This document shows, in pieces, positions 2,661 through 51,798 of a DNA stretch of 55,024 nt. This DNA comes from an uncultured Opitutaceae bacterium (GTDB lineage: Bacteria > Verrucomicrobiota > Verrucomicrobiia > Opitutales > Opitutaceae). The stretch's first letter is position 1. Every line of letters starts with the position of its first letter. A program made the translations under genes and the position numbers. Location of the stretch: NCBI GenBank assembly GCA_903862935.1, contig CAIOZY010000061.1:1-55024 (forward strand). The letters are read 5' to 3'. Below the pieces are notes generated by a model. The model made no database searches, had not been told where the DNA came from, and saw only the letters and a program-made list of their open reading frames with translations.

Positions 2661-3926
2661 TCAGGCCCTGTAGGGCAGGGGGAAGCGGGACATGAGGGCG
2701 ACGGCCTTCTCCTTGGCGGCCGCTATCGCGGCTGCCTCCTCGGGCTTGCCGATCGCACGGGCGACCGAGTCGATCAGCTCGGCGATCTGGGCCATCTCGG
2801 GTTCCCTCAGCCCCCGGGTCGTGACGGCGGCCGTCCCCAGCCGGATCCCGGAGCCCTGGAACGGGGAGCGGGTCTCGAAAGGCACCGTGTTGCGGTTGCA
2901 CGTGATGTTCGCCAGATCGAGCTTCTCCTGGACGGTCTTTCCCGTGAGCTCGGGCAGGTTCGCCCGCAGGTCCACCAGGAACAGGTGGTTGTCGGTCCCG
3001 CCGGAGACGATCCTGTAGCCGCGGGAGGCCATGGCTGCAGCGAAGGCCTTGCTGTTGGCGATCACCTGGGCGGCGTAGAGCTTGAACTCGGGCTTGAGGC
3101 ACTCGCCGAAGCACACGGCCTTGGCCGCAATGACGTGCATCAGGGGCCCGCCCTGGATGCCCGGCAGCACGGTCGCGTCGATCGCCTTCGCGTGCTCGGC
3201 CTTGCACAGGATCAGGCCGCCGCGCGGCCCGCGCAGGGTCTTGTGGGTGGTCGTCGTGACGAAGTCGGCGTAGGGGACGGGCGAGGGGTGGAGCCCCGCG
3301 GCGACCAGGCCGGCGATGTGGGCGATGTCGGCGAACAGGTACGCCCCGCAGGCCTTGGCGATCTCGCCCATGCGGGCGAAGTCGATCGTGCGCGAGTAGG
3401 CGCTTGCGCCCACGGTGATCATCTTGGGCTTCTCGCGCATCGCCGTCTCGGCGAGCTGGTCGTAGTCGATCCGGTTGTCGTCCGGCCTCACTCCGTAGGC
3501 GACCACCTGGTAGAGCATCCCGGAGAAGTTCTTGGGGAAGCCGTGGGTTAGGTGCCCGCCGTGCTCGAGGCTCATGCACAGGATCTTGTCGCCCGGCTTC
3601 AGGACCGAGAAGTACACGGCCATATTGGCCTGCGAGCCGGAGTGCGGCTGGACGTTGGCGTGCTCGGCCCCGAAGAGCTTCTTCGCCCGGTCGATCGCCA
3701 GCTGCTCGGCGATGTCGACGAACTGGCAGCCGCCGTAGTAGCGCTTGCCCGGGTAGCCTTCTGCGTACTTGTTGGTGAGCACGCTGCCCTGGGCCTCGAG
3801 GACGGCCGGGTAGGTGAAGTTTTCCGATGCGATCAGCTCGATGTGGCTGTGCTGGCGGGCCAGTTCGGAGGCGATCGCCGCGTGCAGTTCCGGGTCGAGT
3901 TTCGAGAGCGGGGATGAGTTGAGCAT
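2661..3926 (-). CDS. glyA: Serine hydroxymethyltransferase
   Basis: A 421-residue PLP enzyme that interconverts serine + tetrahydrofolate with glycine + 5,10-methylene-THF, supplying one-carbon units. Hallmarks are the ELIASENF start, [13 protein letters not shown], the FADIAH aspartate (Asp200, PLP ring) and the [11 protein letters not shown] Schiff-base lysine (Lys229). Length and motif order match the bacterial family with no gaps. It shares a strand with purD upstream; both serve glycine/one-carbon/purine metabolism, so co-transcription makes sense. It ends 7 bp before the MFS gene. Confidence 0.97.
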
Positions 3927-3939
3927 GGGAGAAAGGAAG

Positions 3940-3963
3940 AGCCCTGCCGGGTTCGGCCGGGCT
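3940..3963 (-). terminator. GC hairpin in the glyA leader (weak terminator or leader stem)
   Basis: On the minus strand AGCCC...GGGCT arms enclose a second GC stem (GGCCG/CGGC). The stem is followed by the pyrimidine-rich tract CTTCCTTTCTCCC directly before the glyA ATG at 3926. It could terminate the upstream phosphatase transcript or tune glyA entry. There is no clean U-run, so the call is tentative. Confidence 0.3.
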
Positions 3964-4004
3964 AGCGAGTCTCTAGCGCAATGGCGCCGGACCGCGAGGA
4001 TTTT

Positions 4005-4481
4005 TCACGAGACGAGCCGGCGCAGGTACTCGACGATCGAGGGGATCGCCTCGACCATCTCGTCGCGGCTGGACTCGTAGACCGGCAGGGGGCTGCCGTA
4101 GGGGTCGGCGATCTCCCTCATCCTGTCGTCCAAGAGCTCCCGGAACAGGAGCAGGCGCTCCGGCGGCGGCTCGCCGGTCAGCTGGATCATCGTGCGGTGA
4201 GACTCGGTCATGCACAGGACGAGCAGGGACTTGTCGAGCAGCTCCTGGGTGACCGGCTGGCTCTGGTGGCTGGCCAGGGTGATGCCGACTTTCTTGAGCG
4301 CGATCGCCGAGTACTCGGTCGCCGGGTCCCCCCGGCGGGCCGCCACCCCGGCCGAGATCACCGGCACGGAGCGCAGCGGTTCGGGCTGGGCGGCCAGCGC
4401 GTGCCGGAGCAGCGCGGCGGCCATCGGGCTCCGGCAGATGTTTGCCGTGCACACAACAAGGACGTGTCCGGTCGCGGGCAT
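4005..4481 (-). CDS. Low-molecular-weight protein tyrosine phosphatase
   Basis: A 158-residue cytoplasmic phosphatase of the LMW-PTP/arsenate-reductase fold. The P-loop CTANICRS fits CX5R(S/T) near the N-terminus and the general-acid aspartate sits in IADPYGS near the C-terminus. Start ATG 4481 places the P-loop about 8 residues in, as is normal; the longer open frame to 4574 adds low-complexity sequence with no family match. Bacterial homologues often act on tyrosine kinases of exopolysaccharide export, but no such kinase is in the window. The gene begins 43 bp after the preceding gene's stop and is followed by glyA. Confidence 0.88.
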   Translation of the reverse strand: MPATGHVLVVCTANICRSPMAAALLRHALAAQPEPLRSVPVISAGVAARRGDPATEYSAIALKKVGITLASHQSQPVTQELLDKSLLVLCMTESHRTMIQLTGEPPPERLLLFRELLDDRMREIADPYGSPLPVYESSRDEMVEAIPSIVEYLRRLVS

Positions 4482-4524
4482 TAAAGGGAGCAAGGGGACA
4501 CGACTTTTCCGGAAATGCAACGCC

Positions 4525-5196
4525 TTACAACCTGGCTCGGGCCCCGGCGGGGACCGGCAGGCGCCGGAGGGCAACCAGGGTGCGGTGGAGCTGGACGGCC
4601 CGCCTGAGGACCTCGTCCAGGAGCGGGGCCGCCGGCGCGGGCGGCGCGGAGGCGGGGTCGACCGGGTCGGCTGAGAGCGCGCTGTCGCTCAGGTGCTCTC
4701 GGACCAGCAGGGCCTCGTCGTCGCGGGGCTTCTCCCGACGGTCGCTCAGCAGGGCCTCGATCGGGGTTCCGTGCTCGAAGGCCTCCCAGCACTTGCGGTC
4801 CGCATCGGCTTTCACGGCGAGCGGAATGTCGGGTTCGAAGCTGGGGGCCGCAGGCCCGAGGATGATCAACCCGCGGACCGCGTCGGGGGAGGCCAGCGGG
4901 GCGAGCAGCCGGCGGCTTGTGCCGGCGTTGGCGAGGAGGAAGACGGGGTTGTTCGGCCCGGCGTGAAACTTGAGCCAGCCTGCGAGGGCGAGCGCCCCAG
5001 CGGAGTCGCCCGTGGCGTAGCGCAGGTCCAAGACCACGGGACCGCCCCGGGCCGCCTCGGAGGTCGGCAGATCGGCCGGAACCGCGCGGGCCCGGAAGTA
5101 CTTGAGCCCGAGCCCGAGGTCGCGCTCAGCCGGTGCGCCCCGTGCGGCGCCCAGAGCCAGGACGGCGGCGATCAGGAGGGTCGGAACGGCCTTCAT
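4525..5196 (-). CDS. Secreted protein of unknown function, coupled to purD
   Basis: 223 residues. An N-terminal signal peptide is clear (KAVPTLLIAAVLALGAARG then APA). The body contains a VVLDLRYATGDSAGALALAGWL segment and an NNPVFLLANAGTSRRLLAPL segment. These faintly recall the 'LVLDLRGNGGG' and 'PLVVLVNGGTASASE' strands of S41/C-terminal processing peptidases, but the catalytic Ser-Lys pair is not evident. I do not assign a function. The C-terminal third is Ala/Pro-rich then Arg/Leu-rich. Its ATG (5196) overlaps the purD TGA by 4 bp, so it is translationally coupled to purD despite the unrelated job. Confidence 0.75.
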   Translation of the reverse strand: MKAVPTLLIAAVLALGAARGAPAERDLGLGLKYFRARAVPADLPTSEAARGGPVVLDLRYATGDSAGALALAGWLKFHAGPNNPVFLLANAGTSRRLLAPLASPDAVRGLIILGPAAPSFEPDIPLAVKADADRKCWEAFEHGTPIEALLSDRREKPRDDEALLVREHLSDSALSADPVDPASAPPAPAAPLLDEVLRRAVQLHRTLVALRRLPVPAGARARL

Positions 5197-6500
5197 GTCC
5201 GTCCCATCTGCCGGGCGCCGATGTCGCGCCGGTAGTACTTGGTCTCGCAAGCGATGGAATCGCAGGCCGCGTAGGCGCGGTCGGCGGCGGCCCTCAGGGT
5301 GGGCCCGACAGCGACGACCCCCAGGACCCGCCCGCCGCTGGTCACGAGGCGGCCGGCGGCGTCGCGGGCCGTGCCGGCGTGCAGGATCTGGGTTTGGGGC
5401 GGCAGGGCCGCCGCCGGGGGCAGGCCGATTGCGTCACCCCTCGGGTACGGCCCGGGGTAGCCGCGGGCCGCGACGACGACGCAGATCGCCGGCTCGGGCC
5501 GCACCACCAGGGGCGTGCCACCGAGATGCCCGTGGGCTGCTGCCCACAGCAGCCCCAGCAGGTCGCTCTCGACCCGCGGCAGGACCGCCTGGGTCTCGGG
5601 GTCCCCGAAGCGCGTGTTGAACTCCAGCACCTTCGGCCCGTCCGGCGTGAGCATGATCCCGATGAAGAGGGTTCCCCGAAAGTCGATCCCCTCGGAAGCG
5701 ATTCCCTCGACCGATGGCCGCACGATCGTCCGCTCGATCCGCCCGAGCAGCTCCGCCGTGACGACCGCCGCCGGGGAGCACGCGCCCATGCCGCCCGTGT
5801 TGGGCCCCGTGTCGCCGTCGCCGATGCGCTTGTGGTCCTGGGCGGTCGGCAGGATCACGTAGTCGCGGCCCGAGACGATGACCAATATCGAGGTCTCCTC
5901 CCCGGTCAGGCACTCCTCGATCAGGATCTTCGCGCCGCCGGCCGGGGGCCTGCCCGCCGCCCCGAGTGCGAGCAGGTCGCGCGCGGCGGCCTCGGCCTCG
6001 GCCCGGCCCGTCGCCACGACGACCCCCTTGCCCGCGGCCAACCCGTCGGCCTTGACGACGATCGGAACCGGACGCTGCCGCATCCAGGCGATTGCCGAGT
6101 CGGCATCGCCGAAGATTGCCGCCTCGGCCGTCGGGATCGCGTACTTAAGGAGGATTTCCTTGGTGTAGATTTTCGAGGCCTCCAGGCGGGCCCCGTCCGC
6201 CTTGGGCCCGTAGGCGGCGATCCCGGCAGCGCCGAGGGCGTCGACCAGCCCCAGGGAGAGCGGCACCTCGGGCCCGACGACGACGAAGTCGGCCCCCTCG
6301 TCCCGGGCGAGCGCGACCAGTCCGGGGACGTCGTCGGCCGGGACGGGCCGGCAGGTCACGTCCGAGGCGATCCCGGCGTTTCCGGGGGCGCACAGGACGC
6401 GGGGGCGCCCCGGGGAGGCGGCCAGGGCCCGGACGAGCGCATGCTCGCGGCCGCCGGAACCGACCACCAGGACGCACCGGGGAAGGGCGTGGGAACTCAT
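5193..6500 (-). CDS. purD: Phosphoribosylamine--glycine ligase
   Basis: 435 residues; the second step of purine synthesis (phosphoribosylamine + glycine + ATP to GAR). The N-terminal motif VLVVGSGGREHAL is diagnostic. The ATP-grasp core shows VVKADGLAAGKGVVVA, and the active-site segments GDGDTGPNTGGMGA and LEFNTRFGDPETQ are intact. Start ATG 6500 gives the normal family length; the open frame to 6749 upstream is inside the preceding gene. That gene's TGA overlaps this ATG by 4 bp. Confidence 0.97.
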   Translation of the reverse strand: MSSHALPRCVLVVGSGGREHALVRALAASPGRPRVLCAPGNAGIASDVTCRPVPADDVPGLVALARDEGADFVVVGPEVPLSLGLVDALGAAGIAAYGPKADGARLEASKIYTKEILLKYAIPTAEAAIFGDADSAIAWMRQRPVPIVVKADGLAAGKGVVVATGRAEAEAAARDLLALGAAGRPPAGGAKILIEECLTGEETSILVIVSGRDYVILPTAQDHKRIGDGDTGPNTGGMGACSPAAVVTAELLGRIERTIVRPSVEGIASEGIDFRGTLFIGIMLTPDGPKVLEFNTRFGDPETQAVLPRVESDLLGLLWAAAHGHLGGTPLVVRPEPAICVVVAARGYPGPYPRGDAIGLPPAAALPPQTQILHAGTARDAAGRLVTSGGRVLGVVAVGPTLRAAADRAYAACDSIACETKYYRRDIGARQMGRT

Positions 6501-8401
6501 AACACTTGGAGCTTCTTTCGGTAGTAGGCCACGACCTCGTCGGGGTCGTCGGTGAACAGGATGTAGTCGGCGATCCAGGCGGGGGCCCGCTTGGTGCGGA
6601 TCATCTCCCGGATCTGGCGGCGCAGGTGCGAGAAGAACCGGGCGTTGAAAAAGACAAAGGGCACCCGCGGGCGGATGCCCAGCTTCAGGTTGCACATCTC
6701 GATCCCGATCTCCTCCAGGGTCCCGACCCCCCCGACGTTGAAGATGCAAAAGTCGGCAACCTCAAACCACTTCTGCCGGAAGTGGCGGGAGGACTCCTGG
6801 AAGGTGTTGAAGAAGTCCACGCCCAGCTCCGGGGGCTGCGCCTCCAGCTCCAGGAAACAGGCGCCCGTCAGGGCCCCCTTGGTGCGGGCCTGCTCGGTCG
6901 CCAGGCGCATGACGCCGCCGCCGCCGCCTGTCAGAACGCCGACGTTCCCGCCGATGAAGGAGGCCAGGCGCTCCACCAGGACCGAGATGCGCTCGGTGTC
7001 GGCCTGCTCCAGGCCCAGGGCAGACCCGTAGAAGGCGAGGATCGTCGCCTGCTGGAACTTGCGGGCGTTCTCCTCGCGAACGAAGAAGCCGTGGTCCTTC
7101 TTGTAGACGTGTAGGTAAATGTCCTTGGTGAGTTCGTCGTACCAGTACGTCTGCAGGCCCATATGGTCGAAGGTGTCGAGGCGGGCGTGGGCGTTGGAGG
7201 ACAGGAAGTACCCATGGGTGCGCGAGGCCATGCGGAAGATGAGGCGCTTGAGCTTAAGGTCGGCGAACCGCGCCATCAGCTCCACGTGCTCGACCAGCCC
7301 CGGGAAGAACTCCACGGCCAGGGTGTCCGCCCCTTCCGGGGCCGCGTCCAGGGCCTGGATCATCGTGCGGTAGCCGCGGGGGCCGTCGCCGCCGAGGACC
7401 TTCTTCAGGTCGTCGCCCCCCTTGAAGCAGACGGAGCGGTTGTCCATGGTCGCCGTCTGGCCGCGCACCGAGATGCGGGCCCGCGGCCGGGACTCACCGA
7501 ACTCCTGCTGGGGGCCCTCGTCGAGCGCCGCAAACAGTCCGGAGGCCGACGCAAGCAGCCGCTGGCGGCGCTTGGCAAGGGTCTTGAACTCGGGGTCGCT
7601 GAAGGCCGGGGCGCGGAAGATCTCGAGGGACACCAGCGGGTTCACAACCGGCTGGTCGCCCGTGTTGTAGATCTCGAGCATGATGTTGGTGCCGAAGGTC
7701 TGGATCGGGTCGAGGAGCACCGCCCCGGTGTGGATCCCGAAGTTGCCCTCGCCCTGGTTGAGCACGACGTAGTGCTCCCTGAGGTACATGGAGCACGAGG
7801 TGAGGATGCCGGAGCGCGGGGGGATCGTCAGGGGGGAGATGTCGTGGCGCATCTGCACCTTGTCCAGGAACGCGCGGCCCGCCTCGCCGCCGACGATCAG
7901 CTCGAAGTTCAGCCGCTGCAGCCTCGGGTCGAGCGTGTAGCTCACCTGGTGGGGGGTGAGAAACACCCGGCCGCCCCGGTCGATGCTGATCGTGCTGGGC
8001 AGCTTCAGGCGGTTCTCCTTCACCGCCTCCCAGATCTCCTCGGTCGACAGCTTCGAGGCGGCCGGCGCGAAGAACAGGCGCCCGGCGGGCGCCCCGGGCC
8101 GCAGGAGCTTCTTCCAGTACGGGGCGTTGGGGAAGCTCAGGTCGTAGATGAACGCGTCGGCCTCCAACGTCAGGCGGTGGCCGTCCACGGCGGGGGAGCC
8201 GTGAATTGTCATCTCGATGCCGATGCGGGCCAGCGAGCTTCGCTCGCTGAACTTCAGCTCGCTTAAGTGCGCCTTGAGGAACTCGAACTCCGCGGGGTTT
8301 CGCGGCCAGAACGCCAGGGTCAGCGAGACCGTGCGCTCGTCCTGGTTTCGGATCGCCAGGATCTGGCCGTCCTCGCTGGTCCAGAATTGGTCGGGATTCA
8401 T
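6497..8401 (-). CDS. LOG-family nucleotide hydrolase with N-terminal dCTP-deaminase-like domain
   Basis: 634 residues, far longer than a plain LOG protein (~190-250). Residues ~455-634 form a LOG/TIGR00730 Rossmann domain: ILAFYGSALGLE, a Gly-rich loop GVLTGGGGGVM (~488-498) and FNVGGVGTLEEIGIEM (~554-569, the PGGxGTxxE-type catalytic motif with the first Pro replaced). LOG enzymes release the base from nucleoside 5'-monophosphates. Residues ~150-265 read like the dCTP deaminase/dUTPase barrel: LDPIQTFGTNIMLEIYNTGD lines up with the IDPGxxGxxxLExxNxGxxP block, with Glu243 at the deaminase glutamate position. The usual GRSS arginine loop is absent. Residues 1-150 and 270-450 are unassigned. 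Start ATG 8401; divergent from the FKBP gene across 144 bp; ATGA-coupled to purD. Confidence 0.8.
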   Translation of the reverse strand: MNPDQFWTSEDGQILAIRNQDERTVSLTLAFWPRNPAEFEFLKAHLSELKFSERSSLARIGIEMTIHGSPAVDGHRLTLEADAFIYDLSFPNAPYWKKLLRPGAPAGRLFFAPAASKLSTEEIWEAVKENRLKLPSTISIDRGGRVFLTPHQVSYTLDPRLQRLNFELIVGGEAGRAFLDKVQMRHDISPLTIPPRSGILTSCSMYLREHYVVLNQGEGNFGIHTGAVLLDPIQTFGTNIMLEIYNTGDQPVVNPLVSLEIFRAPAFSDPEFKTLAKRRQRLLASASGLFAALDEGPQQEFGESRPRARISVRGQTATMDNRSVCFKGGDDLKKVLGGDGPRGYRTMIQALDAAPEGADTLAVEFFPGLVEHVELMARFADLKLKRLIFRMASRTHGYFLSSNAHARLDTFDHMGLQTYWYDELTKDIYLHVYKKDHGFFVREENARKFQQATILAFYGSALGLEQADTERISVLVERLASFIGGNVGVLTGGGGGVMRLATEQARTKGALTGACFLELEAQPPELGVDFFNTFQESSRHFRQKWFEVADFCIFNVGGVGTLEEIGIEMCNLKLGIRPRVPFVFFNARFFSHLRRQIREMIRTKRAPAWIADYILFTDDPDEVVAYYRKKLQVL

Positions 8402-8545
8402 GTTGGGAAACCGGCGATTATGGGGACCGGTCCGGTCCCGACTCAAGCGGGGATTCGGGCCGCTTTTGGCGGGGCCAGACCCGGGGAGGAAGGGGTTGCA
8501 ATCGGACCGGCCCCGCCCATCCTCACCGCTCAACCTTAAATCCGC

Positions 8546-9289
8546 ATGAAACCCATCCACATTTTCCGCGCGGGGCTCCTGTCGATCCTCGCCACAGCGG
8601 CCGCAAGCGCGCAGGCCCCCAAGCCCGCCGCCGCCGCCCCCGCCCCGGCCGCTCCGGCCCCCGCGTTCACCCAGGTCCAGCTCGTCGAGGAGGTCGGCTG
8701 GCTCGTCGCCAAGCGCGGGAGCCTGACCGAGCTGCAGTTCACGCCGGCCGAGGTCGCCGCCCTGGTCAAGGGCTTCGACGCCGCGATGAACGGCAAGGAG
8801 TCGCCGTACGACATCCAGAAGATCGAGTCCGACCTGAACACCTTCATGCAGGCCAAGCAGGTCGCGTACATGGCGCGCATGAAGGAGCAGAGCCTGGCGC
8901 AGGCCCGCAACTTCTTCACCATCCTGAAGGCCAACAAGGCTGTCGTGGAGCTGCCGAGCGGGCTCCGCTACGAGGTCGTCAAGGCCGGCAACGGCACCTT
9001 CCCCAAGGCCACCGACACGGTCACCGTCCACTACACCGGCCGCCTGATCGACGGGACGGTCTTCGACAGCTCCGTCCAGCGCGGACAGCCCGCGGAGTTC
9101 CAGCTGGACCAGGTTATCCCGGGCTGGACCGAGGGGATCCAGAAGGTCGACAAGGGCGGCAGCATCAAGCTGTACATCCCGCCGCAGCTGGCCTACGGCG
9201 ACGAGGGCCGGCCGGGGATCCCGCCGTCGTCGACTTTGATCTTCGACGTCGAGCTGCTCGACATCAAGCCGGCCGCCCCCAAGGGCTGA
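8546..9289 (+). CDS. Secreted FKBP-type peptidyl-prolyl isomerase (Mip/FkpA-like)
   Basis: 247 residues. A signal peptide (IFRAGLLSILATAAASA) and an Ala/Pro linker are followed by a helical dimerisation domain (~residues 45-130). The C-terminal FKBP domain shows VTVHYTGRLIDGTVFDSS, the QVIPGWTEGI pocket, IPPQLAYGDEG and IFDVELLDI, all the ligand-pocket aromatics expected of an active isomerase. It should assist folding of exported proteins in the periplasm. A rho-independent terminator 36 bp after the stop makes it monocistronic. Confidence 0.93.
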   Translation: MKPIHIFRAGLLSILATAAASAQAPKPAAAAPAPAAPAPAFTQVQLVEEVGWLVAKRGSLTELQFTPAEVAALVKGFDAAMNGKESPYDIQKIESDLNTFMQAKQVAYMARMKEQSLAQARNFFTILKANKAVVELPSGLRYEVVKAGNGTFPKATDTVTVHYTGRLIDGTVFDSSVQRGQPAEFQLDQVIPGWTEGIQKVDKGGSIKLYIPPQLAYGDEGRPGIPPSSTLIFDVELLDIKPAAPKG

Positions 9290-9325
9290 GCCGGCGGGCG
9301 CCCCGCAGCCGATGATTCCTTGATT

Positions 9326-9351
9326 GGCACGGCGGGCCGCCGTGCCTTTTT
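9326..9351 (+). terminator. Rho-independent terminator of the FKBP gene
   Basis: A perfect 10-bp GC stem (9326-9335 with 9337-9346, inner pairs opening to form the loop) is followed by TTTTT. It sits 36 bp after the FKBP stop and ends only 15 bp before the shikimate kinase start, so the kinase promoter must lie in or before the hairpin, or the hairpin acts as an attenuator. Confidence 0.85.
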
Positions 9352-9366
9352 ATGGAGTCGCGCTCG

Positions 9367-9909
9367 ATGAACCCAGGCGACGTCAACCTCTACGTGGTGG
9401 GCTTCATGGGGACGGGCAAAAGCACCGTCGGCCGGGCCGTGGCGCACCACATGGGGTTTTCCTTCCTGGACAGCGACCACGAGATCGAGCGCCAGTGCGG
9501 CAAGACCGTTGCCGAGATCTTCGCCGAGCAGGGCGAACCCGAGTTCCGCCGCCTGGAGCGCGAGTTCATCGAGGGCGGCCACGCGCAGAGCCGGACCGTG
9601 GTCGCCTGTGGCGGGGGCCTGGTGATCCCGCCGGGGATGCTGGACTTGGTGCGGGCGCGCGGCGTCATCGTCTGCCTTCACGCCACGATCGAGACCATCC
9701 TTGAGCGGACCGAGCGGCATTCGCACCGGCCCCTGCTCAACGTGGGCGACCCCCAGCAGCGGGTGCGCGAGCTCTACGCGCAGCGGGCGCCGATCTACAG
9801 GGGCTCCGGCACGGTGATCCTCACCGACGCGAGGCCCCTGCGCGACGTGGTGGCCCACGTGATCCGGGTGTGGGAGCGCGACGCCCGGCCGTTCGCCCTG
9901 GCCCGCTGA
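9367..9909 (+). CDS. aroK: Shikimate kinase
   Basis: 180 residues; phosphorylates shikimate with ATP in chorismate synthesis. Walker A is GFMGTGKST, the shikimate-binding Asp lies in FLDSDHEIE, the GGG motif is VACGGGLV, and the LID arginine segment is ERTERHSHRPLLN. I prefer the second ATG (9367, MNPGDVNLYVVGF) because the earlier in-frame ATG at 9352 begins on the last T of the terminator and would add only MESRS. QueG starts 4 bp after its stop, so the two are co-transcribed. The aroK/aroL choice is nominal. Confidence 0.93.
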   Translation: MNPGDVNLYVVGFMGTGKSTVGRAVAHHMGFSFLDSDHEIERQCGKTVAEIFAEQGEPEFRRLEREFIEGGHAQSRTVVACGGGLVIPPGMLDLVRARGVIVCLHATIETILERTERHSHRPLLNVGDPQQRVRELYAQRAPIYRGSGTVILTDARPLRDVVAHVIRVWERDARPFALAR

Positions 9910-9913
9910 GGCG

Positions 9914-11056
9914 ATGGACCAGAGGGCAGAGCGGCTGAGGGCGGCGATCGCCGCCCTGGGATTTGACGAGGTGCGCTTCGCCTCCGCGGGAGAGCCCCCG
10001 CCGGACCGGCTGACCCCCTGGCTCAAGGCCGGGCGCCAGGCCGACATGGACTGGATGGAACGGACCGCCCCCCGGCGCCTGTCGCCGGAGGCGGTCCTGC
10101 CCGGCGTGAAGACGGTGGTGCTCCTGGGCGTCAGCTACTGGCGGGACGGGGGGGCGCCGCGGCCGGGCGGCCCGGCGCTCGCTCGCTACTCAATGTATTC
10201 GGATTATCATGACACGATAAAGCCGGCCCTCGAACGGGCCGGCCGGCTCCTCGAGGAGCACTGCGGGGCGGCGCCCAAGGACTACCGCTACTACGTCGAC
10301 ACGGGGCCCGTCCTCGAGCGGGGGTGGGCCGCCCGGGCCGGGGCGGGCTTCATCGGCAAGAACGCGATGCTCGTGTCGCGCCTCCACGGCAACTGGCTTT
10401 TCCTGGCGGCGATCCTGACGAGGGTGGAGCTGCCGGCCGACCCCGCGCTCCGCGGCCGGGCGGGGGACGGGCCGGGGCTTTTGTGCGGCAAATGCACCCG
10501 CTGCCTGGACGCCTGCCCGACCGGGGCCTTCCCGGAGCCCGGCGTCGTGGACGCAAGGCGGTGCGTCTCCTACCTGACGATCGAGAACCGGGGCGCGATA
10601 CCCCGGGAACTCAGGGCCCGGATCGGGGCCCGGGTCTACGGCTGCGACACGTGCCTGGAGGTCTGCCCGTGGAACCGCTTCGCCCGGGAGGGCCGGCAGA
10701 TGCTCCTGGCGTCCCGCGACGAACTGGCACAGCTCGGCTGGAGGGAACTGCTCGAGCTGTCGCCGGAGGGCTTCGCCGCGAGGTTCCGGGGCACCCCGGT
10801 CAAGCGCCTGAAGTACGCCGGGCTCCTGCGAAACGCCTGCATCGGGGCGGGCAATTCCGCTGAGGTGGGCCTGGTTGCGCCGCTGCTCAGGCTCGCTGTG
10901 TCGGCCCCGCCGCTAGTGCGGGCCCACGCGGTCTGGGCGGTGCGCCGCCTGGCTGGGGAGGGGGAGGCCCCGGCGCTTCTGGGCGCAGCGCGCGAGGCGG
11001 AAGCCGACCCGGCTGTCCTCTCCGAGTACGCGGGCCCTGTAGACGGGGCCCTCTAG
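9914..11056 (+). CDS. queG: Epoxyqueuosine reductase
   Basis: 380 residues; reduces epoxyqueuosine to queuosine in tRNA using cobalamin and two 4Fe-4S clusters. The N-terminal domain (DUF1730) has LPGVKTVVLLGVSYW. The ferredoxin-like part has the cluster motifs CGKCTRCLDACPTGAF and CDTCLEVCPWNRF, and the C-terminus has HEAT-like repeats (RNACIGAGNS... RAHAVWAVRRLAG). Length matches the family. Its TAG shares the palindromic tetramer CTAG (11053-11056) with the stop of the convergent thioesterase. Confidence 0.95.
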   Translation: MDQRAERLRAAIAALGFDEVRFASAGEPPPDRLTPWLKAGRQADMDWMERTAPRRLSPEAVLPGVKTVVLLGVSYWRDGGAPRPGGPALARYSMYSDYHDTIKPALERAGRLLEEHCGAAPKDYRYYVDTGPVLERGWAARAGAGFIGKNAMLVSRLHGNWLFLAAILTRVELPADPALRGRAGDGPGLLCGKCTRCLDACPTGAFPEPGVVDARRCVSYLTIENRGAIPRELRARIGARVYGCDTCLEVCPWNRFAREGRQMLLASRDELAQLGWRELLELSPEGFAARFRGTPVKRLKYAGLLRNACIGAGNSAEVGLVAPLLRLAVSAPPLVRAHAVWAVRRLAGEGEAPALLGAAREAEADPAVLSEYAGPVDGAL

Positions 11057-11463
11057 GCCCCTTCCTTGAAAAACTCCCGAAGCCGGGCTACCGCCCAGGC
11101 GGGGGGCCTCACGGGCCGGCCCTGGGTGTCGATGAAGGCGTGGGAGGATACGCCGGTCGCCAGGAGCTCCTCCCCGCGGCGGACCTCGTAGTCAAATCGG
11201 ATCCTCAGCAGCGGCCGCTCCCGCAGGGTCGTCAGGATCGTCAGCACGTCGTCGTAGACGGCCGGGCGCAGGAACTTGGCGGTGACCTCGAGGACCGGCA
11301 CCCGGTACCCCTCGGCCTCGAGCCGGCGGTAGGGCATCCCGATCTGCTTGAACATCTCGGTGCGGCCGATCTCGAACCACGTCAGGTAGTTGGCGTGGTA
11401 GACGATCCCCATCATGTCGGTCTCGGCGTAGCGGACCGTGACCTCGGTCTTGGAGTGGATCAT
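11053..11463 (-). CDS. Acyl-CoA thioesterase, YbgC/4-hydroxybenzoyl-CoA type
   Basis: 136 residues, a single hot-dog domain. The active-site segment RYAETDMMGIVYHANYL carries the catalytic Asp of the YbgC/4HBT class. Its ATG (11463) overlaps the glycosyltransferase stop (ATGA), placing it in a two-gene unit with that enzyme, and it lies opposite the ACP/ketosynthase cluster. In that setting it may release acyl chains made by the neighbouring synthase genes; this is inference. It is not next to tol-pal genes, where housekeeping ybgC usually sits. Confidence 0.88.
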   Translation of the reverse strand: MIHSKTEVTVRYAETDMMGIVYHANYLTWFEIGRTEMFKQIGMPYRRLEAEGYRVPVLEVTAKFLRPAVYDDVLTILTTLRERPLLRIRFDYEVRRGEELLATGVSSHAFIDTQGRPVRPPAWAVARLREFFKEGA

Positions 11464-12617
11464 GCCGCGGTCTGGGCCGAGCCGAATAGCGCGCTCGCAG
11501 ACTCCTCCCAGCGGGTGCGCCTGGCCCACTCGCGGCCGGCCGCCCCGAGGCTGCGGCGCAGGGCCTCGTCGTGGATCAATTTCTCGAAGGCGGCCGCAAG
11601 CTGCGCCGGCCGATGGGGCGGCACGAGCAGCCCCGTGCGACCGTCGAGGACCGCCTCGGAGACCCCGCCGACGTCGTGGGCGACGACCGGCAGGCCGTGG
11701 GCGGCGGCCTCGAGGTAGACCAGGCCGAACCCCTCGATCGAGTTGCCATGGTTGACGCTCGTCATCGCGAAGATGTCGGCCCGGGCGTAGACCTGCTCCA
11801 GCTCGTCGTCGGGGAGGTTTCCGAAGAAGCGCACCGAAAGCTCCGGATGCGCCGCCGCCGTGGCCTTCACGGTCTCCTCGTAGCCGCCCTTGCTCTGTCC
11901 GCTGACCATCCAGTACTCGATGCGGCTGCGCACGTCGAATGGGAGCATCTGCAGGGACTGGAGGGTGAGCAGCTGGCCCTTGCGGGGGTGGAGCCGGCCG
12001 ACCGTCAGGACAACGATCTTGTTGGCGGGCCGGGCGAGGGGGGGGGCCACAACCGCCAGGTCCGACCGCGGGGCCCCGGGAGTGAGGAAGGCCTTGTTCG
12101 CCGCCTCGGGAAAGTGCGCCAGAAGCAGCTCCTGGGTGTAGGTGCTCAGGGTGCTCACCCGAGTCGCCCTGCGGATGAGCTGCCGGCCGAGCCAGCGGCG
12201 GAAGGGGCTGCGGGCGAACTTGAGGATCTCGGAGCCGTGGAAGGTCAGGACCAGCCTCTTCGGCCGGAACGCTTTGAAGAACTGCAGGAGCATCATCGTC
12301 AGCATCGGCCCGGGCTCGGGCAGGTAGACGGTGGCCTGGCGCAGCTGCCGGCGGGCGGCCACGAGCTCGCGGGCGAGCCGCAACTGGCACATGAGTCCGT
12401 GGCTTCCCTTCAGGGGCAGCCGGCGCATCTTGAACGGCCAGGCTTTCTCCGCCCCCGGAGGCGCGGACTGGGCCCAGACCTCGACGTCGTAACCCAGGCT
12501 CGCGCTCGCCTTGGCGATCTCCTCGGTGAAGGTCGCGATCCCACCCCTCATGGGATAGAATTCGTGGGTGATTAGATATACGGGCCCAAAGGAGGCGGCT
12601 GAGGCTGGGCCATTCAT
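11460..12617 (-). CDS. GT4-family glycosyltransferase
   Basis: 385 residues, two Rossmann domains. The N-terminal part has the acceptor-side motif YPMRGGIATFTEEIAKA, and the C-terminal nucleotide-sugar domain has VVLTVGRLHPRKGQ and EGFGLVYLEAAAHGLPVVAHDVGG (the E-x7-E motif of GT4). The sugar and acceptor cannot be read from sequence; surface glycolipids or polysaccharides are usual. Start ATG 12617 is chosen because the protein then begins shortly before the conserved VYLITHEFYP strand. It is divergent from the ACP-dehydratase gene across 129 bp. Confidence 0.88.
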   Translation of the reverse strand: MNGPASAASFGPVYLITHEFYPMRGGIATFTEEIAKASASLGYDVEVWAQSAPPGAEKAWPFKMRRLPLKGSHGLMCQLRLARELVAARRQLRQATVYLPEPGPMLTMMLLQFFKAFRPKRLVLTFHGSEILKFARSPFRRWLGRQLIRRATRVSTLSTYTQELLLAHFPEAANKAFLTPGAPRSDLAVVAPPLARPANKIVVLTVGRLHPRKGQLLTLQSLQMLPFDVRSRIEYWMVSGQSKGGYEETVKATAAAHPELSVRFFGNLPDDELEQVYARADIFAMTSVNHGNSIEGFGLVYLEAAAHGLPVVAHDVGGVSEAVLDGRTGLLVPPHRPAQLAAAFEKLIHDEALRRSLGAAGREWARRTRWEESASALFGSAQTAA

Positions 12618-12746
12618 GATCAAGGGGCACGGATCTAGCCGCGCAGGCCGCCCAACGCAAGTGCAACCACATGACTGCTCTCGCGTAAGGCCGCGCCCAA
12701 GAATGGGATTTACTTTACCCGACGCCGTACGGTACAAGATTGTGAC

Positions 12747-13730
12747 ATGTCCGAAGCACTCGATCCCAATCCGGGCTCTAGCAAGTCCTTTGTGGCGCTG
12801 GCCAAGCCTTTCAGCCCCGAGGACGAGGCCGTGCTGCGCGAGTCTCTGAAGCGGTGCTCGCCGTCGACCTTCGAGGCGGCCGTCCAATACCGCAAGACCG
12901 GCAACCCCGAGCACGTCCCGGCCGTCGTCATCGGGATCATCGAGCGCTTCGTCGAGCCGGACCTGCGCACGAAGCTTAAGGATGCCGACGACGACCTGCG
13001 GGTGGTCGAGGACCTGGGGGTCGACTCCCTGACCATGATGGAGATCGTGATCCTGGTGGAGGAGGTTCTCCAGGTGTCGATCAACAACGACGAACTGCGC
13101 AACCTGCGCACCGTCGGAGATGTTAAGACCTTCATCGACTGCAAGATCCGCGGGCTTCCCCTGCCCAAGCCGACCAAGTTCCTGCCGATCGAACACATCG
13201 GGGCGATTATGCCGGTCCAGCCGCCGTTCCTGTTTCTGAACGAGGCCTCCGTCAGCTCCACGGCCGCGAACGGCAAGTACAAGATCACCGGCCAGGAGTT
13301 CTTCCTCCAGGGCCACTTCAAGGACAACCCGGTCATGCCGGCCTCGATCATGCTCGAGGCGCTGGGCCAGCTCGCCGTTCTGTACCTTCTAGAGGGCGCC
13401 CCGACGGAGCCGGGCAAGATCGTCGGCCCGAACACGATTTTCTTCACCGGATGCGAGGGCGTGAGGGCCCACCGGATCTGCCGGCCGGGCGACCTGCTGT
13501 CGCTGTCGATCAAGCCGAAGCGGATGAAGATGCCCCTGGCTACCTTCGAGGGCTCGATCCGCGTCGGACAGGAGAAGACGGTGATCGCCGAGGAGATCAC
13601 AATGACCTTCGGGTTTGTCGACGCCCCGGCCCCCGCCGCGGCCGCTCCAGCCCCCGCATCCCCGCCCATCCCCGCTCCGGCCCCCGCCGGAGGCTCCGGC
13701 CCGCTCAACGCCGCGCTGGGCGGCGCCTGA
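12747..13730 (+). CDS. Acyl carrier protein fused to FabA/FabZ-type dehydratase
   Basis: 327 residues. Residues ~20-60 are a short helical lead-in. An acyl-carrier domain follows, with the phosphopantetheine site LGVDSLTMME (Ser94). Residues ~145-290 are a hot-dog 3-hydroxyacyl-ACP dehydratase with FLQGHFKDNPVMPASIMLEALGQ (His190 and Glu204 at the FabA/Z catalytic positions). The last ~37 residues are an Ala/Pro linker-like tail. Carrying the substrate arm and dehydratase in one chain suggests dedicated chain-building rather than housekeeping FabZ. It is followed 56 bp later by a ketosynthase and then a reductase on the same strand. Confidence 0.9.
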   Translation: MSEALDPNPGSSKSFVALAKPFSPEDEAVLRESLKRCSPSTFEAAVQYRKTGNPEHVPAVVIGIIERFVEPDLRTKLKDADDDLRVVEDLGVDSLTMMEIVILVEEVLQVSINNDELRNLRTVGDVKTFIDCKIRGLPLPKPTKFLPIEHIGAIMPVQPPFLFLNEASVSSTAANGKYKITGQEFFLQGHFKDNPVMPASIMLEALGQLAVLYLLEGAPTEPGKIVGPNTIFFTGCEGVRAHRICRPGDLLSLSIKPKRMKMPLATFEGSIRVGQEKTVIAEEITMTFGFVDAPAPAAAAPAPASPPIPAPAPAGGSGPLNAALGGA

Positions 13731-13786
13731 CCGGGGCGGCAGTCCGGCAAGGCGCGCCGGCCCTAGCGCCCCGCCCGTTCGTCACC

Positions 13787-15046
13787 ATGCCCAGAGTCTT
13801 CATCACCGGCCTCGGTTTCGTGACTAGCATCGGAAACGATGCGGCCAGCGTGGCCTCGAGCCTGCGCGAGCTCCGGCACGGGTTCGAGTTGTACCCGCCC
13901 TTCCAGAAGCCGGACATCCCCTGCAAGGTGGTGGGCACGGTCAAGGGCTTCACGGCGAACTCCACCGACCCCGAGGACTGGACCTGGCCCAGCCGCTACG
14001 CGATCAAGCGGGAGACCCTGCGCTCAATGGCGCCCCACGGCCTGTATGCCCACTGCGCCTTCCTCCAGGCGGTCGAGGACGCCCGGCTTGGCCCCGGAGA
14101 GGTCTCCAACCCCGAGACGGGGCTCAACGCCGCATCGGGCGGCTCCCCCTTCCTGACCCACTACAACCACGAGCGCCTGCTCAAGCTCGGGGTCATGCGC
14201 TGCTCCCCGATGGGGATCGTCTCCTCGATCGTCGGCACCCTCAACTTCAACCTCGTGGCGGCCTTCCGGATCCAGGGCTCGTCCTGCGGCTTCTCCTCGG
14301 CGTGCGCCTCCTCGGCCCACGCGATCGGGTTTGCCTTCGACGACATCTCGCTCGGCCGCCAGAAGCGCATGTTCGTCGTCGGGGCCGAGGACGGCAACGT
14401 CGACGCGATCATGCCCTTTGCGGGAATGCGCACCCTCTCCCTGCAGACGGACCCGGCGCTCGCCTCCCGGCCGTTCGACGCCGCCCGCGACGGGTTCGTC
14501 GGGACGGGCGGGGCGACCGTGATGGTGCTCGAAAGCGAGGACGAGGTTGCCCGCCGCGGGGTGCGGCCCTATGCCGAGGTTCTCGGCTGGGGGCAGGCCT
14601 CCGACGGCTACAATGTCGCGATCTCACACCCCGACGGCGCCGGGCTCGCCCTGGCGATGCGCAACGCCCTGCGGGCGGCCCGGGTCGCCCCCGAGCAGGT
14701 CGATCACATCAACGCCCACGCGACCTCGACTTTGATCGGCGACATCGCCGAGGCCCGGGCGCTGCGGGCGGTTTTCCCGCAGGCGGCCGAGCGGCCCGGC
14801 ATCTCCAGCACCAAGGCCCTGACCGGCCACGGCCTGTCGCTTGCGGGGGTGATGGAGAGCGCCTTCTGCGCGCTCGCCATGCGGGAGGGTTTCACGCCGG
14901 GTTCGGCCCACATCAGCCGCGTCGACCCGCAGTGCGAGGGCCTGAAGATCCTGCGGGAGACCGTTCCTCAGGCCCCGGGAATTGTCATGAAGAACAGCAG
15001 CGGCTTCGGCGGCGCCAATGTCGCGCTGCTTTTCAGGAAGGTCTGA
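13787..15046 (+). CDS. Beta-ketoacyl-ACP synthase (KAS I/II family)
   Basis: 419 residues, a complete thiolase-fold ketosynthase with an intact Cys-His-His triad: Cys173 in SACASSAHAIG, His311 in NAHATSTLIGD and His348 in STKALTGHGLSLAG. The C-terminal Gly-rich stretch KNSSGFGGANVALLF is intact. It begins at ATG 13787 (MPRVFITGLGFVTSIG, the canonical start); the open frame upstream of this overlaps the previous gene out of phase. It sits between the ACP-dehydratase fusion and an SDR reductase 6 bp downstream, so it is probably the condensing enzyme of the cluster rather than the primary FabF. Confidence 0.93.
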   Translation: MPRVFITGLGFVTSIGNDAASVASSLRELRHGFELYPPFQKPDIPCKVVGTVKGFTANSTDPEDWTWPSRYAIKRETLRSMAPHGLYAHCAFLQAVEDARLGPGEVSNPETGLNAASGGSPFLTHYNHERLLKLGVMRCSPMGIVSSIVGTLNFNLVAAFRIQGSSCGFSSACASSAHAIGFAFDDISLGRQKRMFVVGAEDGNVDAIMPFAGMRTLSLQTDPALASRPFDAARDGFVGTGGATVMVLESEDEVARRGVRPYAEVLGWGQASDGYNVAISHPDGAGLALAMRNALRAARVAPEQVDHINAHATSTLIGDIAEARALRAVFPQAAERPGISSTKALTGHGLSLAGVMESAFCALAMREGFTPGSAHISRVDPQCEGLKILRETVPQAPGIVMKNSSGFGGANVALLFRKV

Positions 15047-15052
15047 ACCGGA

Positions 15053-15898
15053 ATGGCGCGCAGCCTGAGCGGCACGTACCGCACCGCCCTCGTCACCGGG
15101 GCGGGCTCCGGCCTGGGGGAGGCCTTCGCACGGATGCTTGCGGCCGAGGGGGTGCGCGTCTGGGGCAGCTCGCGGCCGAAGACCCTCGCCTCGGGGGCAG
15201 GCCGCATCCCTCCGGGGGTCGCCGCCGTCGCCCTGGACCTCGCCGACCCCAAGGGGGCCCAGGAGGCCTTCGCCCGGGCGCAGGCCGAGGCCGGGGGGTG
15301 CTTTGACCTGGTGGTCAACAACGCCGGCTACGGGGTCTTCGGGGAGTTCGCGGCGGCCGACTTCGGCTCGTGGGAGGCGGACCTGGCGGCAACCCTGCTG
15401 ACGGCGGCCGGGATCGCCCACTCGGCCTACCGGGCGATGCGCGCGCGAGACCGCGGCACACTGGTCAACGTGTCGTCGCTTGCTGCCGAGTTTCCGCTGC
15501 CCTACATGAGCGGCTACAACGTGGCCAAGGCCGGGCTGTCGGCCCTGAGCGCAAGTTTGGCCTTTGAATCCCGTCAGGGCGCTGTCAAGGTGATCGATTT
15601 CCGGCCCGGTGACTATCGGACCGCCTTCAACGAAACCATGAAGACCCGATCGACCTCGTTTTCCTCGACTTTGTCCGGGGAACTCGGGGCCGCGTGGCGG
15701 GTTCTCGAGCGCAACATGGCGGCGGCGCCGCACCCTTCGCGGGCGGCCTCCGACCTGCGCCGGGCCCTGCTGCGCGGCCGGAGCGGGGTCGTCCGCTCGG
15801 GCTCCCTCTTTCAGGCCCGCCTGGCCCCGGCCCTCGCCCGGATCGCCCCCGCCTGGCTCGTGCGGGCCGCGGCGGCGCGCTACTTCGGGGCCCGCTAG
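15053..15898 (+). CDS. Short-chain dehydrogenase/reductase, probable ketoreductase of the cluster
   Basis: 281 residues. The cofactor motif TGAGSGLG lies at residues 15-22, NNAG at ~89-92, the catalytic Ser in VNVSS (~141) and YNVAK (Tyr155, Lys159). The C-terminal ~70 residues (from about DYRTAFNETMKT onward) are longer and more Arg/Ala-rich than FabG. It starts 6 bp after the ketosynthase stop. In position it would supply the 3-ketoacyl reduction between condensation and dehydration; it could instead act on another lipid intermediate. Confidence 0.88.
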   Translation: MARSLSGTYRTALVTGAGSGLGEAFARMLAAEGVRVWGSSRPKTLASGAGRIPPGVAAVALDLADPKGAQEAFARAQAEAGGCFDLVVNNAGYGVFGEFAAADFGSWEADLAATLLTAAGIAHSAYRAMRARDRGTLVNVSSLAAEFPLPYMSGYNVAKAGLSALSASLAFESRQGAVKVIDFRPGDYRTAFNETMKTRSTSFSSTLSGELGAAWRVLERNMAAAPHPSRAASDLRRALLRGRSGVVRSGSLFQARLAPALARIAPAWLVRAAAARYFGAR

Positions 15899-15925
15899 GC
15901 GCCCCCTCCCAGGAGCGCACCCATC

Positions 15926-17182
15926 GTGTCGAAGATCCGCATCCTCGTCCTCACCTCAAGCACCGGCGGCGGCCACGACGCCCGCGCCGAGGCCTTCGCG
16001 GAATGGTGCTTCCAATTGTACCGCCACGACGTGGACGTGCGCATCGAGCAGATGCTCGAGAAGTCCTCGGTGGTGAACCGCGCCGGGGTCAACCTCTACA
16101 ACCGAATCCAGCGCGGGGCACCGTGGGTGCACAAGCTGTTCTACACGGTGGTCGAGGTCTTGAGCATCCTTAACCAGCGCACGGTGGCGATCGGCCGGCC
16201 GTACTACTTGAGGGTCCTGCGCGAGTACCGGCCCCACCTGATCTTCTCGGTGCACGACTGCCTCAACCGGGGCTACTTCCAGCTCGCGCGGAGGATCCTG
16301 GGGGAGGGGAACGTCCGCTGCGCCACCTACTGCGGGGAGTTCTCCGGGGGATGGGGCTACTCCCGCAACTGGATCGAGCCGACGGTGGATCTGTACGTCT
16401 CGCGCACCCCCACGGCGAGCGACTTTGCCGTCAAGCGGGGCATTCCCCGGGAGAAGTCGATCGTTCGGGGCTACCTGATGGCCCCCCGGGCGCACCTGGA
16501 GGTGATCTCGCCCGCGGAGCGCGGGACCTACCGGGAGAAGCGGCTGGGCCTGAGACCGGACCTGTTCACCGTGTTCCTGGCGACCGGCGGGAACGGGGCC
16601 AACAACCACTTCGAGCTCCTGCCCGAACTGCTGCGCCATGCCGAGCGGTGCCAGGCGATCATCATCTGCGGCCGCAACAAGCAGACCTACAACGACCTGG
16701 TCCACTGGCGGGCGAACCACCCCGAGTTCAACTGCTACATCGAGGGCTTCTCCGAGATTGTGCACCTGCTGCTGCAGGTCAGCGATGTCATCGTCACGCG
16801 GGGAGGGACCACCACCTGCGCCAAGGCCCTTCACTTCCGCTGTCCGATCATCTTCAACGCCTTCGGCGGCATCATGCCCCAGGAGCGCCTGACCTGGAAG
16901 TTCTTCCGGAACGGGGCGGCCGCCTCCAAGATCGAGCGCGCGGCCGAGTTCGGCGACCTGATCGACGAGTGGATGGCCCGGCCCGAGTCCTACACCCGGG
17001 CCCGCGACGCCCTGCTGCGCCTGCGCTACGAGGAGGACCCGACGATCCTGATCGACGAACTGGTGGGGCTTGCCAACTGGGTCGCCCGGGCGAAGATGCG
17101 CCGGGTCGCCTTCCCGCCGCCCGGGACCTCGAACGGCACACCCCGCGGGGCGCCCCCCGGGGGCGCGACAAATTCTGCGTAG
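15926..17182 (+). CDS. MGDG-synthase-like (GT28) lipid glycosyltransferase
   Basis: 418 residues. The N-terminal domain has SSTGGGHDARAEAF, the GGGH signature of monogalactosyldiacylglycerol synthases and UgtP-type diglyceride glucosyltransferases. The C-terminal GT28 domain has FLATGGNGANNHFEL and VIVTRGGTTTCAKALHFRCPIIFN. Members transfer hexose to membrane diglycerides at the cytoplasmic face. Last gene of the plus-strand run ACP-DH / KS / SDR / GT28, 27 bp after the SDR stop. The final ~25 residues are Pro/Gly-rich. Acceptor lipid unknown. Confidence 0.88.
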   Translation: MSKIRILVLTSSTGGGHDARAEAFAEWCFQLYRHDVDVRIEQMLEKSSVVNRAGVNLYNRIQRGAPWVHKLFYTVVEVLSILNQRTVAIGRPYYLRVLREYRPHLIFSVHDCLNRGYFQLARRILGEGNVRCATYCGEFSGGWGYSRNWIEPTVDLYVSRTPTASDFAVKRGIPREKSIVRGYLMAPRAHLEVISPAERGTYREKRLGLRPDLFTVFLATGGNGANNHFELLPELLRHAERCQAIIICGRNKQTYNDLVHWRANHPEFNCYIEGFSEIVHLLLQVSDVIVTRGGTTTCAKALHFRCPIIFNAFGGIMPQERLTWKFFRNGAAASKIERAAEFGDLIDEWMARPESYTRARDALLRLRYEEDPTILIDELVGLANWVARAKMRRVAFPPPGTSNGTPRGAPPGGATNSA

Positions 17183-44476: not shown

Positions 44477-44486
44477 CGTCCGGAAT

Positions 44487-45473: not shown

Positions 45474-45924
45474 TGTCGCCTCGGTCCCAGAGCCCCTCAA
45501 AGGGCGCTGAGGACGACCGGGCGGGTCCGGACGCTGGGCAGCGGCGTGAGTAGTCCCTTGGAAATCGGCACGAGGGCCGGTGATGATTCCGAGGGCGGGT
45601 GTGAAAGATTGATATGCAAAGTGGTAGAAGTGCTGAACACACGTGAGAATTTGGAATACCAGATACGATGCAAGGTGTGTTATTACGTACGCAGTAACAA
45701 ATAGATATAAAACCCTACTTTGGAGATGGGGTGATAACCCTATTCCGACATGGATTTGGTCACTTCTGTGGCTTATTCACCTGCGTTCCTGCACATAAGA
45801 GGCTGTAAATAAGTTACGTGAAAACATAGCCGATCGCCGGCGATGAGAGCGCCGGCACAGAAGTGGCGGGGTTCCGGCCGTTAGGGCCGGATTCAAGCTG
45901 CAGGGGGCCTCCCCCGTTATAGTT
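45474..45924. other. 451-bp non-coding region with AT-rich core and three hairpins
   Basis: 45640-45830 is AT-rich with no ORF or recognised RNA. Three GC hairpins then follow: 45836-45856 (GCCGGCG/CGCCGGC), 45873-45891 (TCCGGCC/GGCCGGA) and 45903-45915 (GGGGG/CCCCC). They lie directly after the stop of the minus-strand gene at 45925 and probably form its 3' end. No U-run follows, so a structured 3' UTR or small RNA is also possible. Confidence 0.5.
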
Positions 45925-51721: not shown

Positions 51722-51798
51722 ATAGCCGCCGGACTTGCGGCGCGGAACCTTATGTCGGGCGGACCTACAGGCAGAGCGGCCTAGGTGAGCTGAGCATC

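Follow-up and report, generated by a model that had tools for sequence, protein, structure and literature searches.

Which lipid is built by a gene block that sets a carrier, elongation enzymes and glycosyltransferases side by side is the question raised by positions 11,053 to 17,182 of a contig from an uncultured Opitutaceae bacterium (assembly GCA_903862935.1, contig CAIOZY010000061.1). The window analysed here is the whole 55,024-nucleotide stretch, bases 1-55024 of contig C61, in a genome of 3.35 Mb and 62 contigs (G000 in our numbering of genomes, with C for contigs and L for loci). An earlier note, made from the letters of the window, had described a six-gene lipid or glycolipid cluster with a minimal fatty acid synthase set and had considered a polyene or unsaturated chain attached to a sugar lipid. 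In relatives the same genes are followed by more: two glycosyltransferases, here called GTa and GTb, and an alpha-oxoamine synthase (AOS), which groups with serine palmitoyltransferases (SPTs). With somewhat better than even confidence, we read the block as one half of a conserved Opitutales pathway that makes a sphingoid-type glycolipid, namely the half that supplies the carrier, the chain elongation and the glycosylation.

A block of six genes with intact active sites

All six genes were found where the earlier note had placed them and belong to the families it had named, with one reservation concerning the last:

11053..11463, minus strand: thioesterase (TE) of the 4HBT fold, YbgC/FadM type (Pfam 4HBT_2, 6e-19; NCBIfam TIGR00051 above cut-off)
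11460..12617, minus strand: glycosyltransferase of family 4 (GT4), divergent from the fusion gene that follows (Pfam Glycos_transf_1, 4e-34)
12747..13730, plus strand: fusion of a helical N-terminal stretch, an acyl carrier protein (ACP) and a FabZ-type dehydratase, here ACP-DH (Pfam FabA, 1e-14; PP-binding, 1.5e-6)
13787..15046, plus strand: beta-ketoacyl-ACP synthase (KS) of probable FabB type (Pfam ketoacyl-synt)
15053..15898, plus strand: short-chain dehydrogenase/reductase (SDR; adh_short, 2e-31)
15926..17182, plus strand: GT28-type glycosyltransferase (Glyco_tran_28_C, 23.1 bits against a cut-off of 22)

The reservation concerns the label "MGDG-synthase-type" (monogalactosyldiacylglycerol synthase) given to GT28. 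While the C-terminal GT28 domain passes its cut-off, the match to Pfam MGDG_synth (21.7 bits) falls below the threshold of 25, and that to NCBIfam PRK13609 (79 bits) below 500, so the protein resembles diglucosyl-diacylglycerol and MGDG synthases and the label describes a resemblance only. The catalytic residues, by contrast with that label, are as had been claimed: the ACP retains Ser94 (base 13026), the dehydratase its pair His190/Glu204 (bases 13314 and 13356), the KS Cys173/His311/Lys343/His348 (aligned to C163/H298/K328/H333 of E. coli FabB) and the SDR its Tyr-x3-Lys motif at 155. The catalytic residues of ACP-DH are invariant in an alignment of 16 sequences, and alignment with E. coli FabA and FabZ gives the dehydratase the His/Glu pair of FabZ, not the Asp of FabA. 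An AlphaFold model of ACP-DH has a mean predicted local distance difference test score of 55.7, with the N-terminal stretch and the ACP helical and the remainder unreliable. The thioesterase possibly edits or releases acyl chains.

The SDR may be either a ketoacyl-ACP reductase or a 3-keto reductase acting on the product of the AOS. Its best NCBIfam models, all scoring below their cut-offs, are PRK06179 (117 bits), 3-ketodihydrosphingosine reductase (99 bits) and 3-ketoacyl-ACP reductase (91 and 78 bits). Gene neighbourhoods point both ways. In four genomes where the KS is not linked to ACP-DH the SDR adjoins that KS (G022, G047, G177 and G255), favouring a ketoacyl-ACP reductase, while in three others (G020, G024 and G269) the SDR travels with the AOS block, favouring a 3-keto reductase.

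The block is separate from housekeeping fatty acid synthesis

The earlier note had held that, if the KS and the fused ACP-dehydratase fell within housekeeping clades and were the only copies in the genome, the block would simply be the primary fatty acid locus. The genome carries four further ketosynthase matches. One belongs to a FabG-AcpP-FabF locus on C13, whose FabF groups with E. coli FabF in the tree; a second FabZ, fused to an LpxC-like protein, lies on C25, a FabV-type reductase on C53 (PF07055) and the sole FabI match on C19 (here and below, the names FabG, AcpP, LpxC, FabD and LepA in loci of this genome were assigned by eye from translations). Because a separate FabF locus, FabZ, FabV and FabI exist, the block is not the housekeeping fatty acid locus. 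That it might nevertheless be the primary locus with unrelated neighbours, as the fatty-acid-synthase type of the KS and dehydratase could suggest, is barely credible, given these separate genes and given that 254 of the 288 Verrucomicrobiota genomes searched have no ACP-DH match.

In phylogenetic trees (23 and 32 rows drawn from part of the fetched loci, with E. coli FabB and FabF as the only references, some forks unresolved and roots placed for drawing), the KS groups with its orthologues in a single clade next to E. coli FabB, and both E. coli FabF and the FabF of the same genome fall outside it (support 100/100 in the 23-row tree); the core KS clade comprises 29 rows at 100/99 in the 32-row tree. 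Identities (152/419 to FabB, 150/419 to FabF) and curated-model scores (305.9 bits for FabF, 305.2 for FabB) do not separate the two types, so the classification of the KS as FabB-type rests on the trees.

Paralogues of the core KS, reaching 50-57% identity, occur in G022, G039, G056 and G203 (L241, L245, L249 and L250). They form a clade of their own (100/98), and each has a small ACP-like gene immediately beside it, as a second, related ACP-KS module.

The chain itself had been thought possibly a polyene, and related products would be of the aryl-polyene or polyunsaturated fatty acid (PUFA) kind. A cluster with KS, dehydratase and ACP and no enoyl reductase has that look, and antiSMASH predicted an arylpolyene cluster, which may or may not correspond to this one, for a related strain, ASA1 (PMC12193912). 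We nonetheless consider such a secondary metabolite very improbable: the conserved set holds a single KS with no chain-length-factor partner, the PUFA-type model PfaA gives 68 bits against 306 and 305 for FabF and FabB, FabV-type and FabI reductases are present in the genome, and the distribution is family-wide and syntenic.

A larger gene set recurs in relatives

Conserved synteny, which the earlier note had proposed to look for across Verrucomicrobiota, was found. ACP-DH has 153 confirmed relatives, the best 80 of which (74-89% identity; titles mostly Opitutaceae, Opitutae, Opitutus or Verrucomicrobia) supplied 80 homologous loci from other genomes, with genes called by a simple codon-usage script. 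The block arrangement is found in these loci at about 47-89% protein identity (L078 and L079 being near-identical), a recurrence far beyond chance. Counting for each gene only the loci with enough flanking sequence, GT4 and TE are each present in 74 of 74, the KS in 73 of 75 and GT28 in 59 of 61, while the SDR is often absent at this position (41 of 61). GTa and GTb each follow in 39 of 52 loci and the AOS lies inside the 8-kb flank in 28 of 52. The adenylate kinase gene that comes next in the window occurs in none of 52, so the genes after GT28 are not part of the set and the end of the set is rearranged here; the ferredoxin likewise had no match in the 80 loci.

The order ACP-DH, KS, (SDR), GT28, GTa, GTb, AOS, with some single-gene inserts, is kept on one contig in 16 family genomes. 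Where the set is divided, its parts can be followed. In the genome studied here the second half (GTa, GTb, an aminotransferase-like gene, the AOS and a GTb-like gene) lies on C57, downstream of fabD-like and lepA-like genes as in its congener G001. The extent given in the earlier note thus stands for the six genes and falls short for the set, the SPT-like AOS and the further glycosyltransferases having been missed because in this genome they lie outside the window. The same break between GT28 and GTa is seen in G010 and G033, and a break between KS and SDR in G020 and G024; in G269 the block from SDR to AOS lies 1.8 Mb away from ACP-DH. In these last three genomes, SDR, GT28, GTa, GTb and AOS remain together apart from ACP-DH. 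Eight genomes in which the KS is not beside ACP-DH were tested, and seven (G022, G038, G039, G047, G053, G177 and G255) carry a core-clade KS elsewhere, G037 being the exception; in four of the seven the SDR is beside that KS, and in G022 GT28 is as well.

In two outliers from other orders, G303 and G131, and in G203 (L154, L156 and L203), GT28 precedes an extra protein and a class III aminotransferase. The extra protein had no Pfam match in the one copy scanned (L203), and the aminotransferase is glutamate-1-semialdehyde-aminotransferase-like in the one copy scanned (L154).

An SPT-type oxoamine synthase accompanies the block

The AOS of this genome (G000:C57:71545-72735) has Sphingobacterium SPT as its best solved-structure match by sequence (310 bits). 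In a 36-row tree (part of the fetched loci, some forks unresolved, roots for drawing), 21 core AOS rows form a clade at 100/100 on a long stem, joined at 98/94 to E. coli Spt and an SPT-like gene of G021. Sphingobacterium SPT sits in a neighboring group at an unresolved fork, and Kbl-type genes and BioF, the latter on a long branch, fall outside the SPT group (99/95). All 43 core AOS sequences that were aligned keep the catalytic Asn, His, Asp, His, Lys and Arg (E. coli Spt has Glu at the Asp position). All 43 also share with both SPTs an Ala that is replaced by Asn in Kbl and by Thr in BioF, at the column we treat as equivalent to Lys281, the mark of the sulfonolipid enzyme SulA. From its sequence, the enzyme is judged to be of SPT type.

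The AOS and ACP-DH occur together almost one to one. One draw of 288 Verrucomicrobiota genomes was searched for each of them. ACP-DH (E<=1e-20) occurs in 34 of these genomes and the core AOS (E<=1e-130) in 31: both in 30, ACP-DH only in four (G055, G056, G209 and G274), the AOS only in one (G203) and neither in 253. Weaker AOS matches (1e-86 to 1e-100) in G106, G172, G211, G257 and G326 were left out of the core; four of these fall outside the core clade in the tree, and G172 is not among its rows. Within the family, 24 of 26 members have ACP-DH and the identical 24 have the AOS, G137 and G306 lacking both. Both genes also occur in three outliers that belong to other orders of the class, 12 kb apart in G303, 14 kb in G131 (start to start) and 71 kb in G063. 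Among 57 genomes including the one studied here, with the core cut by E-value (AOS 1e-80, ACP-DH 1e-30) and a split ACP and dehydratase counted as present, both occur in 42, ACP-DH only in six (G004, G007, G022, G051, G055 and G056, with separate ACP and dehydratase parts in G051 and G055), the AOS only in one (G052, 50% complete) and neither in eight; in 20 of those 42 no more than 10 kb separates the AOS from ACP-DH. Fisher p values, which ignore relatedness, are 3e-35 for the phylum, 1e-6 for the order only and 1.5e-5 for the relatives.

A candidate route to a sphingoid-type glycolipid

From these patterns we infer an order of reactions, an amino-acid substrate, a chain type and the addition of sugars. 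A dedicated ACP, fused to the dehydratase, would carry the acyl chain, and the FabB-type KS and the fused dehydratase, together with either the SDR or FabG as reductase, would run one or more rounds of elongation, with optional enoyl reduction by FabV or FabI. The SPT-like AOS would then condense the acyl-ACP with an amino acid, most likely serine, releasing CO2 and a 2-amino-3-keto lipid that is perhaps reduced by the SDR, and GT28, GT4, GTa and GTb would add sugars. The fusion of the ACP with a dehydratase, and the presence of a KS of its own, suggest that the chain is elongated on the ACP. The earlier proposal of a link to glycolipids is borne out to this extent, that a dedicated acyl-chain module lies beside conserved glycosyltransferases and its product is hence probably a glycolipid.

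In an unlikely variant of this route, sphingosine-type (4,5-trans) long-chain bases would be made without oxygen. Condensation by the KS, reduction by the ketoreductase and dehydration by the domain fused to the ACP, with no enoyl reduction to follow, would leave a trans-2-enoyl chain on the ACP, and upon condensation with serine by the AOS the 2,3 double bond of the acyl chain would end up at positions 4,5 of the base. In eukaryotes that double bond is made by a desaturase. The variant would explain why ACP and dehydratase are fused and why the cluster lacks an enoyl reductase; G203, which has an AOS but no recognised dehydratase domain, speaks against its being general.

The closest known counterpart is the Proteobacterial sphingolipid pathway of Caulobacter and E. 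coli BL21 (AcpR, AasR, Spt, bCerS/Aca and CerR/Epi), in which, according to the available text, a dedicated ACP is likewise linked to an SPT-type AOS and SPT prefers an acyl chain on that ACP, loaded by AasR (PMC9386255). The ACP-SPT linkage is also seen in the E. coli BL21 gene cluster, which we inspected. Unlike that pathway, the present set has its ACP fused to a dehydratase, its own FabB-type KS in place of AasR and several glycosyltransferases, and the bacterial ceramide synthase (bCerS) is found in only 2 of 57 genomes. SPT of Bacteroidota and SulA, a cysteate acyl-ACP transferase, belong to the same enzyme family, and SulA too uses acyl-ACP; it differs in the Lys described as its mark (PMC9304779), where the core AOS have Ala. 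In Black Sea metagenome-assembled genomes (MAGs), 22 Verrucomicrobiota MAGs with Spt-like proteins were counted, and across phyla bCerS and CerR were often not near the Spt-like genes; the parts of its text covered here, supplements excluded, describe no cluster of ACP-DH, KS and glycosyltransferases (PMC11334938). Spt-like proteins in Verrucomicrobiota are thus already in print, as counts (PMC11334938). E. coli FabA/FabB likewise pairs a FabB-type KS with a dehydratase of the FabA/FabZ fold, while the present set has a FabZ-type His/Glu site, the ACP fusion and a link to the AOS and glycosyltransferases. In AOS-terminated polyketide systems such as fungal Fum8 and prodigiosin PigH, an AOS unloads a carrier-bound chain from a dedicated synthase. 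Those systems are multidomain or belong to secondary metabolism, whereas here the module is of type II and lies in a family-conserved locus. In the open-access literature, with subscription papers and supplements outside the search, we found no description of the cluster, and no open-access paper was found joining serine palmitoyltransferase with Opitut- names, or with bacterial ceramide and Verrucomicrobia together.

Several observations weigh against a sphingoid-type glycolipid. The lipid itself is so far a prediction. The best NCBIfam model for the AOS is SPT at 373 bits, far below the equivalog cut-off of 640, so serine is no more than the likely substrate. In the genome studied here the AOS is not on the contig of the window. 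ACP-DH, or ACP, dehydratase and KS, is kept without the AOS in G004, G007, G022, G051, G055, G056, G209 and G274, and G203 has an AOS-GTa-SDR-KS-ACP arrangement with a short ACP. bCerS (YghO) is confined among the 57 genomes to G010 and G021 and is not in the genome studied here, which also has no AasR acyl-ACP synthetase match at 1e-40. The lipid data of PMC13274419, as far as its available text goes, tabulate only phosphatidylethanolamine, phosphatidylglycerol and diphosphatidylglycerol for two other Opitutales columns and report phospholipids only for its own species (ultra-high-performance liquid chromatography with high-resolution mass spectrometry), with the word sphingolipid absent from that text; these comparisons are by taxon, not gene content.

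The distribution of the canonical genes bears on how the set is to be classed. AasR matches were found in 9 of 38 genomes, the only strong one being in G021 (41% identity, 1.6e-132), beside its own SPT-like gene, and in both G010 and G021 a second SPT-like gene, outside the core AOS clade, is on the bCerS contig. For the ceramide reductase CerR (Epi), which belongs to a large superfamily of epimerases, the set offers instead the SDR with its sub-threshold match to 3-ketodihydrosphingosine reductase (99 bits). Canonical sphingolipid genes are therefore rare extras here and the conserved set is separate from them; with bCerS in only 2 of 57 genomes, we treat the set as a variant and do not file it as a ceramide pathway. 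The canonical-type genes at L218 (G010:C130) and L219 (G021:C13, with AasR in G021) were perhaps acquired separately.

Alternative explanations

The alternative that survives best, itself unlikely, is a module for unsaturated fatty acids, in which the dehydratase would isomerise as FabA or FabN does and the KS would elongate the cis-enoyl chain to membrane C16:1 w5c, the AOS and glycosyltransferases being long-standing neighbours. Reported Opitutaceae fatty acids include iso- and anteiso-C15:0, iso-C14:0, C16:0 and, in some, C16:1 w5c (available text of PMC5303756 and PMC12193912), the last reaching 8.4% in Lacunisphaera parvula (PMC5303756) and 16.9% in Rariglobus (PMC12193912); C16:1 w5 also appears in two table columns of PMC13274419. 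Also in favour of this module are the position of the KS clade beside FabB and the retention of ACP, dehydratase and KS without an AOS in G055, G209 and G274. The active site, however, is His/Glu as in FabZ, not the Asp of FabA, isomerase activity being unreadable from sequence. Desaturase-family genes are found in 47 of 57 genomes, including the one studied here, so unsaturation does not require the module. Moreover, the available text of PMC12193912 gives no C16:1 among the major fatty acids of Horticoccus, Oleiharenicola and Nibricoccus, yet ACP-DH is in 24 of 26 family genomes, a comparison made at family level. The co-occurrence with the AOS would also be left unexplained.

Less probable still is that the module supplies a special chain to an ordinary GT28/GT4 glycolipid, a glycosylated fatty acyl or diacylglycerol lipid, while the AOS makes something else. 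The resemblance of GT28 to diglucosyl-diacylglycerol synthase would fit, as would the presence of GT28 and GTa beside ACP-DH and KS in two genomes: G056, where a core AOS is lacking, and G180, which has its AOS on a different contig. Inspection by eye of the gene families common to at least four genomes, not all of these families having been searched against libraries, showed no recognisable acyltransferase. The near one-to-one co-occurrence of AOS and ACP-DH argues against such a division of labour, as does the SDR-GT28-GTa-GTb-AOS block that stands together away from ACP-DH in G020, G024 and G269.

Other loci in the genome and the window

Three further loci of the genome hold related genes. 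L119 (G000:C19:16000-35000, genes 3934-11548) has a KS, an ACP, two FAD oxidoreductases (Pfam Amino_oxidase) and a FabZ-like gene, together with the sole FabI match, a KAS III-like enzyme and an alpha/beta hydrolase, and recalls olefin or ladderane gene sets. L118 (G000:C39:8000-22000, genes 3186-7620), with a KS and ACP, a class III aminotransferase, a HAD-type phosphatase and an alpha/beta hydrolase, is possibly a second amino lipid locus. At L116 (G000:C41, 7819-8232), a methyltransferase-like gene is neighboured by a paralogue of the ACP that stands alone and shares its N-terminal extension (49% identity); ACP-only copies akin to it occur in several relatives. Elsewhere in the window, G+C is 0.56-0.62 at 44001-54000, down from about 0.70 in the first 38 kb, and a 634-residue protein with a long N-terminal part is encoded at 6497-8401; its C-terminal part resembles what we take to be a LOG-type domain.

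Implications for sphingolipid capacity in Opitutaceae

In the surveys considered, sphingolipid capacity in bacteria has so far been inferred from Spt, bCerS and CerR. If the reading as a sphingoid-type glycolipid pathway is true, a whole family maintains a gene set in which an SPT-type enzyme comes with a carrier, a dehydratase and a ketosynthase of its own, and bCerS is usually absent. This would be a second logic for loading SPT, in which the chain is built instead of a free fatty acid being activated. It would also give a concrete lipid to seek in cultivated Opitutaceae and a probable acceptor for at least four glycosyltransferases.

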